This document shows, in pieces, positions 27,753-31,816 of a DNA stretch of 64,000 nucleotides. Under the pieces are notes generated by a model. That model did not search any database and was not told the origin of the DNA. It saw only the letters and a program-made list of their open reading frames with translations. The stretch's first letter is position 1. Every line of letters begins with the position of its first letter. Position numbers and translations under genes: made by a program. The DNA comes from Dokdonia sp. (GTDB lineage Bacteria; Bacteroidota; Bacteroidia; Flavobacteriales; Flavobacteriaceae), in assembly GCA_020630915.1 (NCBI GenBank), contig JAHDIF010000002.1, positions 186,001 through 250,000 on the forward strand, read 5' to 3'.

Positions 27753-30194
27753 TTAGGATGGTTTTTTGAGTAATCCTTTTACATTGTTAAAATCAATAAA
27801 GTAAGTAACTCTTAAAGATACAGCGTGACTTATTGTTTGATCAAAAAGGTCTCCTAGGCTTTCTCCATAACTCAAAGCAGCTTGATCTGTACTATTAAAG
27901 ATATTGTTTCTATATAAGAGTGAAGCCTCGCTTCCAGGTGCAAAACGCCATCTAAAGCTTAGGTCCATATTCCATATATTAAAATTGGTATTAGGATCCC
28001 TTTGGATTGTAGTATCGTAGGTATCTATAGACGTTCTGGAGCCATCTTCATTAAGTAAGTAATAGATGTTACTGCTATGATCTGCTGTACTCCAGAAGTT
28101 GCGAAACCTAAGGTCTATGGCCTTATACGGATCAAAATTGTAACTCGCAGTAATCGTATTTTCTACCGAGTTGATATCTCTTAATCCCAGAAACACTTCG
28201 GTGTCGGTATTATCTACCCACCCAAAATTATTTGTGGTCGAATTATATTCTGACGATAGCACGACCAGAAAACGATCAGAAAATCGATATCTAGGAGAAA
28301 ATTCTATTCCCAAACTAGACTGTTGCTCATCTATTTCTTTAAACCAAGTTCTTGTATTAAAGTTGAGGTCAAAAGCAAATTTCTTTCTAAAGTCAGTACT
28401 AATAAATCCCCCGCCGCCTAAGCTGGCATCAAAGGTTACAAAACGTCCTTGGATCCTAGGTTCAAAATAATCTTGACGCTGGTCATTATAGTTGCTAAAA
28501 GCGCCAAAAGCAAAACGTTCCTTTGTAAAAAAGAAAGAATTGATACGCAGGCTATTACCCGTTACAACATCGGGCCTATAAAGTCGTCTATGTCTATAAG
28601 TTATATCTACGCGATATCCATTAAAGGTTTCTGTAGGCTGGATTAACTCATAAGAACCGCCTAACGTAAAGTTGTTGAAATTATTTCTAAATAAAAGCCC
28701 AAGATCATTGATGTCTATAGTGGTATTTGCAAAGTCATGTCCAAAACGATAGCGCCATGACCCACTAATTTTCCTAAAATCAAATTCTGATTGAAATCCA
28801 GTAGTAAGGCCCTCATCATCTCTCACATTGCTCACAATACCCCTACCTGAAACTCTGTAGTTATTCTCTTTATCTGCAATATCAAATACAGCTCCTGTGA
28901 CATTTGCATCCCTAAAGTTACTTCCACTCCTAATAACACTTGTATTTATAAGGGATATGGAGGAGTTATTGTTAAACTGCTGGTCTAGTACAAACACATT
29001 GTAATTAGATAAAGGTTCTACAACCTCTTCTCGTCTCTCGCTAGTTACGGTATTGCGAATGGTTGCAAACGTTCTTTCAGTTATGGAGTTTAAAAAACCT
29101 ACCCCTAAACCGTCTTTTGTGCGCCCAGAGATTTTAATAGAATTTAATAAATTTACTTTAGAAGGAAATTCTAATACCTCTTCATTTTCTTCTAAATTGT
29201 TAACAGATCCAGAAGGACCGCCACCTATCCTTCTAGAAAAGAAAATGCGTCCTTTATTAAAGAGATCCGTTCCCTCAGTAAAAAAGGGTCTGTTTTCTCC
29301 AAAGGTTTGTTCAAAGGGGCCTAGGTTAAGGCGAACTTCATCAAAGGCTACTTGCCCAAAATCTGGAATAAGCTGAGCATCCAGCGTAAAACTATCACTC
29401 AAGCCATATTTAATGTCCATTCCTCCAGCAAAATCTATAGAGGTTTCTCCATCTGAGAAGTTAGTTAACGCTTGCGCAAAAGGAAACAACGTTAACCTCA
29501 CAGGAGCATCTATATTTTTTATTCCTAGTACACGACCGTTATATTGTGTATCACGTCCTACACCACGTTCTATAAAATTCCAAGTATGGGTTTGATTTTC
29601 ATTTATAAGCCTCCTATAGAAATTAACACTCCAATCTTGCACGGGCGCTTCTGGGAAGCGTAATGCGTTATAAGGGATCTTAAACTCTGCATACCATCCT
29701 TTTTCATCACTAGATATACGACAGGTGAAAACCACATTAAAACCAAAGTCTCTATCATTTTGAGTAACTCTTTGATCTCCTATAGTTCCCGCACTAGTTA
29801 CATAAAATCGTGTCTCATTAATACCATCATTATATGTGTTCAGACCTATCATAAAATGATCTGCCTGAACAAAAATTTCGTCCCTTTGACTAAACTGTCT
29901 CGCCATTGAGCTAGGGTCGGTATGATATAAATATGCTGCTATATAAACAGCCTTGTCATCGTAAGCCATTTTAACTTCTGTCTGTAATTCTTCAGCAATA
30001 GTTCCTTCATTTCCTGGCTCAAACATTACAAAATTGCCAGATGGAGAGATAGTACTCCATACATTGTCGTCTAAGACTCCGTCTATTTTTGGGGCTTGAG
30101 TAATTCTATGAGCCTCAATTTTTTTCTGGTCGTGCTGACTTATCCCTACAAGTGATGTAAATAGGAGAGGTATAAGATATAGAGCTGTGCGCAT
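27753..30194 (-). CDS. DUF5916-domain outer-membrane protein with CBM9-like N-terminus
   Basis: An 813-residue secreted protein. Residues 1-19 form a signal peptide. Residues 25-210 resemble a family 9 carbohydrate-binding module: APKIDGVLDDNVW, AYDDKAVYIAAYLY, WYAEFKIPYNALRFP and VNFYRRLINENQ. The rest, from QYNGRVLGIKNI to the end, is the DUF5916 region, with many amphipathic strands that look like a large barrel. Its role is not known. It is divergent from the msrA-like/folE pair across an inverted repeat. Confidence 0.85.
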   Translation of the reverse strand: MRTALYLIPLLFTSLVGISQHDQKKIEAHRITQAPKIDGVLDDNVWSTISPSGNFVMFEPGNEGTIAEELQTEVKMAYDDKAVYIAAYLYHTDPSSMARQFSQRDEIFVQADHFMIGLNTYNDGINETRFYVTSAGTIGDQRVTQNDRDFGFNVVFTCRISSDEKGWYAEFKIPYNALRFPEAPVQDWSVNFYRRLINENQTHTWNFIERGVGRDTQYNGRVLGIKNIDAPVRLTLFPFAQALTNFSDGETSIDFAGGMDIKYGLSDSFTLDAQLIPDFGQVAFDEVRLNLGPFEQTFGENRPFFTEGTDLFNKGRIFFSRRIGGGPSGSVNNLEENEEVLEFPSKVNLLNSIKISGRTKDGLGVGFLNSITERTFATIRNTVTSERREEVVEPLSNYNVFVLDQQFNNNSSISLINTSVIRSGSNFRDANVTGAVFDIADKENNYRVSGRGIVSNVRDDEGLTTGFQSEFDFRKISGSWRYRFGHDFANTTIDINDLGLLFRNNFNNFTLGGSYELIQPTETFNGYRVDITYRHRRLYRPDVVTGNSLRINSFFFTKERFAFGAFSNYNDQRQDYFEPRIQGRFVTFDASLGGGGFISTDFRKKFAFDLNFNTRTWFKEIDEQQSSLGIEFSPRYRFSDRFLVVLSSEYNSTTNNFGWVDNTDTEVFLGLRDINSVENTITASYNFDPYKAIDLRFRNFWSTADHSSNIYYLLNEDGSRTSIDTYDTTIQRDPNTNFNIWNMDLSFRWRFAPGSEASLLYRNNIFNSTDQAALSYGESLGDLFDQTISHAVSLRVTYFIDFNNVKGLLKKPS

Positions 30195-30269: not shown

Positions 30270-30303
30270 TTTGTTTAATTAAACATAAATTAGATTAAAC
30301 AAA
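30270..30303. promoter_or_regulatory. Inverted repeat, possible operator
   Basis: Arms TTTGTTTAAT (30270-30279) and ATTAAACAAA (30294-30303) are perfect complements 14 bases apart. The left arm overlaps the 12-bp palindrome GTTTAATTAAAC (30273-30284). It lies 11 bases before the msrA-like start and between divergent genes. It has the form of a repressor or MerR-type site; no regulator gene is nearby. Confidence 0.4.
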
Positions 30304-30314
30304 TTAATAGTGCT

Positions 30315-30869
30315 ATGAAAAATATATCAACTATTTTATTAGGAGGCGGTAATTTTTGGATTACAGAAGCAATCTTTAAGAATGTAAGAGGTGTGCTTAG
30401 GGTTACTCCTGGATATGCAGGGGGTTACCTAGCCGCACCAGTTTACAGAGAAGTTTGTTCTGGACGTACTGGTCACGCAGAGGTTGTCCAAATTCACTTT
30501 AATTCAAGTCAAATAGATTTAGAATCTCTTTTGGACATCTTTTTCACTATGCACAACCCTACTTTAGAAAATAAGCAAGGAGTAGAAAAAGGATCGCAGT
30601 ATAGGTCTTATATTGGGAGCACCAGTCTAGAGCAGTCAAAAATTGTAAAGGATTACATTAGAGTTAGACAAGAAAATAATACCTTACCGAATAATATCGC
30701 AACAGATATTGAATTAAACAATGTATTCTTTGAAGCAGAATACTACCACCATAATTACTATGAGATTCATTTGTCGCAGCCATATGCGCAACGACTCATT
30801 GCACCAAATTTACAGGAGGTAGAAGCAATATTTAAAGAGTATTATATAACACCATTATTAGCAAGTTAG
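30315..30869 (+). CDS. MsrA-family protein lacking the catalytic cysteine
   Basis: A 184-residue protein clearly homologous to peptide-methionine (S)-S-oxide reductase: [37 protein letters not shown] and [12 protein letters not shown]. The essential GGGCFWC motif reads GGGNFWI: the catalytic Cys is Asn13 (codon AAT) and the usual E-x-F helix follows. The substrate-pocket Tyr and Glu residues are kept. The reading frame is intact, so this is a pseudoenzyme or an enzyme with a changed chemistry rather than a decayed gene. The stop codon is one base from folE. Confidence 0.88.
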
Positions 30870-30870
30870 T

Positions 30871-31467
30871 ATGCCGTACAAGCAATTTGAAGAGTATAAC
30901 ATCCAAGTAACAGATGATGTTAAAAGGAGTTTTGAATCTATAATAGAAAATCTAGGAGAAGATAAAGATCGAGAGGGTATTGTAAAAACGCCAGAAAGAG
31001 CGGCAAAGGCAATGCAATTTCTTACCTCAGGATACTATATGGATGCATCTGCAATTCTTAAAGGTGCAATGTTTAAGGAAGATTATGACGACATGGTCAT
31101 TGTAAAAGACATTGAGTTGTATTCATTATGTGAGCATCATATGTTACCATTTTTTGGGAAAGCACATATCGCATACATCCCTAACGGGCATATTGTAGGC
31201 TTGAGTAAATTACCCAGAATTGTTGATGTTTTTGCCAGACGTTTACAGGTACAAGAACGTCTTACCCATGATATTCTTGAGTGCATAAACGAGACGCTTA
31301 AACCTAAGGGTGTAGCGGTTGTTATAGAAGCCAGTCATATGTGTATGATGATGCGTGGTGTGCAAAAACAAAACTCGACTACAACGACATCTGGTTTTAG
31401 AGGGCAATTTGAAAAACAAGAAACTCGTAATGAGTTTTTAAAACTTATAAGTTCAGATCTGTCTTAA
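30871..31467 (+). CDS. folE: GTP cyclohydrolase I
   Basis: A 198-residue type I enzyme making dihydroneopterin triphosphate from GTP, the first step to folate and other pterins. Zinc ligands are in [11 protein letters not shown] (Cys and His) and [10 protein letters not shown] (Cys). Active-site residues are in [30 protein letters not shown] and [12 protein letters not shown]. The enzyme is complete. It is coupled to the MsrA-like gene, an unusual partner whose own role is unclear; other folate genes are not adjacent. Confidence 0.95.
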
Positions 31468-31516: not shown

Positions 31517-31816
31517 ATGAGCAAATACAAACTTTTATTTATAGGTTTATTAATAGATGCCTTTGGTATGATTACTTCTAGTTGGGTACTTCCAGTTATA
31601 GGTGATTTTGCAGATATTGTGTGGGCACCATTAACCGCTTGGTTAATGACTCGCTTATACAAAGGTAACGCAGGAAAAATAGCAGGGGTTGCTACATTTA
31701 TAGAAGAAATCATTCCTGGTTTAGACATCATACCTTCGTTTACCTTAATGTGGCTTTATACTCACGTGATTAGAGATTCTAAAATTTCTAAAGTATTAGA
31801 TCTAGATGACAAATAA
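31517..31816 (+). CDS. Small membrane protein of unknown function
   Basis: A 99-residue protein with two to three hydrophobic segments (residues 5-26, 32-46 and 70-86). It has conserved-looking patches LLIDAFGMITSSWVLPVIGDFADIVWAP and IEEIIPGLDIIPSFTLMW. The second contains an acidic pair within a hydrophobic region, which is typical of small integral-membrane proteins found in flavobacteria. No function can be named. It lies between folE and hutH with its own short upstream region. Confidence 0.7.
   Translation: MSKYKLLFIGLLIDAFGMITSSWVLPVIGDFADIVWAPLTAWLMTRLYKGNAGKIAGVATFIEEIIPGLDIIPSFTLMWLYTHVIRDSKISKVLDLDDK

Follow-up and report, generated by a model that had tools for sequence, protein, structure and literature searches.

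What does a homologue of methionine sulfoxide reductase A (MsrA) do when the cysteine on which reduction depends has been replaced, and why does it stand directly in front of folE? The question is raised by a gene of Dokdonia sp., here called msrA*, located at 30315 to 30869 on the forward strand of the window, the whole 64,000-nucleotide stretch of DNA that was analyzed. Its open reading frame, a match to the PMSR profile, an AlphaFold2 model and PDB matches identify it as a gene for a Cys-less MsrA homologue of 184 amino acids, MsrA*.

Fold, pocket and missing cysteines of MsrA*

By sequence profile MsrA* is a member of the MsrA family. The PMSR profile (Pfam PF01625) is matched with 162 bits against a curated cut-off of 23.7, across profile positions 1-151 of 153, and TIGR00401 with 146.9 bits against a curated cut-off of 108.1. 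The homologue is full-length, and its frame of 184 codons holds no internal stop and is undamaged, as the original prediction had stated. An MsrA fold is predicted by the AlphaFold2 model (pLDDT 95.1, pTM 0.90), the input of which was an alignment of MsrAs that favors this fold, and in a VIA-align comparison of the model with the PDB the top rows were MsrA structures, with Z up to 24.1.

The motif of MsrA* reads GGGNFWI. Codon 13 (30351 to 30353, forward strand) is AAT, which places Asn at the position of the nucleophilic Cys or Sec of the GCFW motif, and codon 16 (30360 to 30362, forward strand) is ATT, placing Ile at the second motif Cys, which is present in 140 of 143 MsrA rows (repeated loci of the same gene were left out). 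Both replacements, and with them the absence of the catalytic cysteine, had been predicted and are borne out by the codons. To these is added a third lost redox cysteine: codon 158 (30786 to 30788, forward strand) is GCG, so that Ala replaces the Cys of a QPYC motif in the row alignments. No pair of cysteines for a disulfide cycle is left, since Cys48 (codon TGT, 30456 to 30458, forward strand) is the sole remaining Cys of MsrA* in the row alignment. Position 158 is Ile or Val in 12 of the 143 rows, all Cys13-bearing MsrAs of another type, and Cys158 is therefore no strict feature of a functional MsrA.

The six residues Phe14, Trp15, Tyr44, Glu56, Asp91 and Tyr96 were followed as a pocket set, in which we take Phe14, Trp15 and Asp91 to have pocket roles in MsrA. 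Five of the six are identical in MsrA*. Glu56, the pocket acid (30480 to 30482, forward strand), and Tyr96 are found in 143 of 143 rows and Tyr44 in 142. The exception is codon 91 (30585 to 30587, forward strand), where Glu replaces an Asp that is present in 141 of 143 rows, with one gap in the row alignments. The claim of a conserved pocket is upheld for Tyr44, Glu56 and Tyr96 and has to be qualified for position 91, where the change is conservative. We know of no tested counterpart of Asn13 or Glu91 in an MsrA.

MsrA* resembles the MsrAs described by PF01625 and TIGR00401 in its whole-length match, its predicted fold, most of its pocket residues and its msrA-folE locus, and differs from them in lacking Cys13, Cys16 and Cys158 and in having Glu for Asp91. 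Recoding of codon 13 as Sec or as a stop was rejected, the codon being AAT and not TGA. The codon was read from the assembly only, and a sequencing error at this position is argued against by the joint replacement of three cysteines and by a separate gene in another genus, described below.

Selenocysteine MsrA, in which Sec is a working nucleophile, offers one comparison: the form from Clostridium oremlandii is likewise a natural replacement of the catalytic Cys on the same fold, but Asn or Ser would not be expected to act as the nucleophile that Sec is. PDB entries 4lwj to 4lwm are, by their titles, U16C and U16S forms of this enzyme. A closer comparison is with laboratory Cys-to-Ser mutants. 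A study of Haloferax MsrA states that C13 and E56 are both needed for reductase activity and that C13S has none (PMC5587910). A second source shows Neisseria MsrA C51S with MetO substrate bound (3bqf; PMC6210582), which indicates that a Cys-to-Ser form can still bind, and this structure, 3bqf, belongs to the best matches of the MsrA* model (Z 24.1). Neisseria Cys51, Tyr82, Glu94 and Tyr134 correspond to positions 13, 44, 56 and 96 of MsrA* by a constant shift of 38, a correspondence made by spacing alone. In these mutants, as in MsrA*, the nucleophile is replaced and the pocket kept, whereas the genes described here are natural and have lost two more cysteines, and MsrA* carries Asn. By analogy with the published mutants, MsrA* is almost certainly not a reductase; on the same analogy, we would put its binding of MetO at about an even chance.

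Rarity of the replacement and a second gene in another genus

Position 13 is Cys in 141 of the 143 MsrA rows, and the nucleophilic Cys is absent from two alone: MsrA*, with Asn, and a gene of genome G251, with Ser. Every one of the 80 loci on named genome contigs has Cys13, Cys16 and Cys158. The search for related loci kept 80 of at least 545 relatives. With such constancy, the Asn of MsrA* does not reflect random variability at this site. The pattern GG-x-FW-x-x-EA, with x not Cys, was matched in four of 397 family genomes, themselves a draw from the larger family: the host of msrA* (G000), G251, G394 and G247, with MsrAs in the first two only. Repeated on 184 genomes of the class, of which five belonged to the family set above, the scan gave matches in the host, G463 and G421. 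The matches in G394, G247, G463 and G421 are not MsrA and were rejected as further cases, as were 18 of 19 matches to a shorter pattern, the nineteenth being msrA* itself. A third Cys-less MsrA was not found by the pattern scans of the 397 family genomes, scans that see GG-x-FW-x-x-EA only and miss motifs in which the Cys is preceded by AG, SG, NG or GA, or in which Phe is replaced by Tyr; several ordinary relatives have such motifs, which are not rare. The family search gave 104 matches at E 1e-42 or better, of which the best 30 were read and the other 74 were covered by the patterns only. Among viral contigs the pattern scan gave 14 matching stretches and no relatives. In literature titles and abstract openings, among the matches listed, neither a natural Cys-less MsrA nor an msrA-folE operon is described.

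G251 represents another genus of the Flavobacteriaceae, one with a single genome here. Its gene (L114) is a positional orthologue of msrA*, directly upstream of folE, and encodes a protein 49 to 51% identical to MsrA* that matches PMSR with 181 bits. The protein has GGGSFWT and QPYA, that is, Ser13, Thr16 and Ala158, and retains Glu56 and Tyr96. It has three other cysteines, Cys48 included, and its Ser13 is the very residue of the laboratory mutants. The suggestion that orthologues with the same replacement and the same folE linkage might exist is answered by this gene, with which the case in which all orthologues keep Cys does not arise. The G251 genome encodes two further MsrAs, like the host of msrA*, where a search for other copies, proposed with the original prediction, found two, both with GCFWC. 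The host also has two MsrBs, encoded in tandem (L191 and L192, G000:C10:10954-11699). With two normal MsrAs and two MsrBs the reductase capacity of the host is covered.

In an alignment of 65 rows that we chose from the loci, 40 columns count as conserved, the threshold being 95% or more of the 63 rows that bear Cys; MsrA* breaks six of them (C13, C16, D91, V129, C158 and K165) and the G251 protein four (C13, C16, H145 and C158). The presence of all three redox cysteines within the broken set has a hypergeometric p of 0.002 for MsrA* and 0.0004 for G251, in an author-chosen alignment where only two rows represent the MsrAs without Cys158. Of the 37 remaining columns, MsrA* keeps 34, the departures being D91E, V129A and K165N, and G251 keeps 36. 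The count of six is unremarkable in itself, since a Cys-bearing MsrA of the host (L002) breaks seven of the 40.

The folE locus and the descent of msrA*

The gene for GTP cyclohydrolase I, folE (30871 to 31467, forward strand; GTP_cyclohydroI, 257.4 bits), starts one nucleotide after the msrA* stop codon. It is followed by orf99 (31517 to 31816, forward strand), which encodes a hydrophobic-looking product of 99 amino acids with no Pfam match. The divergent upstream neighbor of msrA* is a DUF5916 gene (27753 to 30194, reverse strand; Pfam DUF5916, 737.6 bits). Among the best 30 family loci folE stands beside msrA in 21, and in 19 of those 21 the MsrA bears Cys. Together with the loci of G003 and G006, two genomes of the same genus, these make 23 folE-linked loci, in all of which msrA and folE share a strand and are separated by -11 to 39 nt. 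Within flanks of about 1.5 kb, orf99 follows folE in 21 of these loci, and DUF5916 is beside msrA in 15. Cys13 is kept in 21 of the 23 MsrAs, and Cys158 is present in the same number, being Ala in MsrA* and G251. The tight coupling noted in the original prediction is real at one nucleotide, but it is no oddity: as a special mark of msrA* it was rejected, because ordinary Cys-bearing relatives share it. Judged by gene order, it is a common arrangement of the family, inherited, from which msrA has often been lost.

Within the genus this loss is extensive. All 18 genomes have folE. An msrA is beside it in the host, where it is Cys-less, and in G003 and G006, where the positional orthologues keep Cys, so that the replacement is no fixed trait of the locus. 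In 14 of the 18 genomes msrA is absent beside folE and DUF5916 lies 114 to 272 nt from it; at these loci (L169-L184 except L172 and L183) the flanking genes are in place and msrA is missing between them. The locus of the 18th genome, G012, ends at a contig edge. The gene is thus dispensable in close relatives. No convincing remnant of msrA was found beside folE in the msrA-less genomes of the genus; one chance-level match (E 8.1) lies elsewhere in L169. A necessary role of the msrA* reading frame as a leader of folE is unlikely, as folE directly follows the DUF5916-folE intergenic region in these 14 relatives.

Between DUF5916 and msrA*, at 30270-30303, there is a perfect 10-nt dyad, TTTGTTTAAT/ATTAAACAAA. 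Exact half-sites, TTTGTTTAA or TTAAACAAA, stand ahead of msrA or of folE at 8 of 19 loci, the msrA* locus included. From its sequence and position, the dyad may serve the folE unit as an operator or promoter element.

Within the Flavobacteriaceae, MsrA* derives from the ordinary MsrA that is linked to folE. The GC3 of msrA* (0.28) is close to the values for folE (0.29) and hutH (0.30) and gives no compositional sign of recent foreign origin. MsrA trees, built without the redox columns, pair MsrA* with the G251 protein (support 94/95 and 96/96). In the second of these trees the pair joins the MsrA of G113 (95/94), which keeps Cys and comes from a genus also represented by one genome. In a tree of the locus (folE, orf99 and part of DUF5916) the partner of G251 is G113 (100/100), and that of the window is G010 (100/98), the sister of the host, in which the locus has no msrA. 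Neither alternative placement was rejected (p-AU 0.094 for MsrA* among the relatives of its genus, 0.277 for the G251 protein beside that of G113), and the end branch of MsrA* is so long (2.35 and 2.6 changes per column) that its placement in the tree is unsure. On these sequences, either the Cys-less gene has passed from one lineage to another or the losses have arisen twice in parallel.

Retention and possible role

The persistence of msrA* is not readily explained by neutral drift. When three starting genes were evolved in neutral simulation to the observed divergence, 2, 0 and 1 of 1000 runs stayed free of stops, and no more than 26 of the 40 conserved columns were kept, against 34 in MsrA*. 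In a codon model omega = 1 on the msrA* branch was rejected in all six fits (two topologies by three branch-length limits; 2dlnL 13.9 to 19.9). With branches capped at 3 or 6 the omega of msrA* was 2.3 to 3.5 times background, a size made unreliable by saturated synonymous sites, and a single omega was rejected (2dlnL 14.8 to 29.2), which would mean weaker constraint on msrA* than on its active relatives; when the limit on branch length was raised to 33, there was no difference from background (2dlnL 0.18 and 1.51). As the msrA* branch was at or near its upper bound in every free-omega fit, we use the rejection of neutrality alone. If the loss of the cysteines is shared with G251, the constraint came after the loss; otherwise some of the constraint may be older than the loss. 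The rejection of neutrality, which holds for the branch as a whole, agrees with the predicted maintenance of a pseudoenzyme, and msrA* has probably been retained by selection.

The explanation we favor, which we hold to be somewhat better than an even bet, is that MsrA* is a natural pseudoenzyme: a dead reductase kept by selection with its MetO pocket, binding without reducing. The nucleophile Cys13 has been lost together with Cys16 and Cys158, the other redox-cycle cysteines of its own clade, and without the three a sulfenic-acid/disulfide cycle cannot run. The predicted fold is kept, and so are Phe14, Trp15, Tyr44, Glu56 and Tyr96 of the methionine-S-sulfoxide pocket, Asp91 having become Glu. 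With a pocket present and a nucleophile absent, binding without reduction is expected; oxidized methionine, in proteins or free, would most likely be bound and left unreduced. We infer a cellular role as a reader, shield or competitor, which MsrA* would play alongside the host's two active MsrAs; the sensor or chaperone function and the chemistry with another residue that the original prediction raised are inferences as well.

The main rival holds that msrA* is redundant and slowly decaying: two other active MsrAs would make the one beside folE dispensable, and it would have been deleted in most relatives and have lost catalysis first in this lineage. The 14 msrA-less loci of the genus, that of the sister G010 included, agree with such a course, as do the very long, fast-evolving branch, the further departures D91E, V129A and K165N, and the raised omega under branch caps. 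Decay does not predict that neutrality is rejected, even with omega of unreliable size, that 34 of 37 non-redox conserved columns are kept, that the frame is intact at a divergence where this is rare in simulation, or that the same set of cysteines is replaced in G251. We consider it unlikely; the same pattern in a second genus points to a probably retained, non-catalytic version and not to a broken gene.

The pseudoenzyme reading can be extended, more tentatively, to natural Cys-less MsrAs in general. It is possible, though we would not call it probable, that they are dedicated methionine-S-sulfoxide readers, which would recognize the mark without erasing it, a form reached or exchanged by two lineages, given that the MsrA trees pair the two genes against the relationships of their host loci. 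To our knowledge no dedicated bacterial reader of methionine sulfoxide has been described; if the reading is true, bacteria gain a way to sense or protect methionine oxidation. An MsrA free of redox cysteines with a sulfoxide pocket would also be a ready-made MetO binder. For annotation the caution is simpler, as a match to an MsrA profile need not mean a reductase.

Less probable still than slow decay is a protein partner, with a role independent of MetO binding, for instance with FolE or the active MsrAs. It would suit the position of folE, one nucleotide downstream on the same strand, and the close spacing in every folE-linked locus, yet FolE manages without an MsrA* homologue in 14 of 18 genus genomes, and a pure scaffold would have no need of the conserved substrate-pocket residues. 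Altered chemistry through another residue, such as Cys48 as nucleophile, is very improbable: Cys48 is kept in both proteins, and its Haloferax equivalent C48 is described as a likely recycling Cys, but only 116 of the 143 rows, and 18 of the 23 folE-linked ones, have Cys at this position, MsrA* has no second Cys (G251 has two more, at other places), and Haloferax C13S, a single mutant in which C48 is presumably present, is inactive (PMC5587910).

Elsewhere in the genus, a small contig (L105, G012:C989) carries two different MsrA ORFs about 1 kb apart, one of which has a GCFWG motif and a very long branch.
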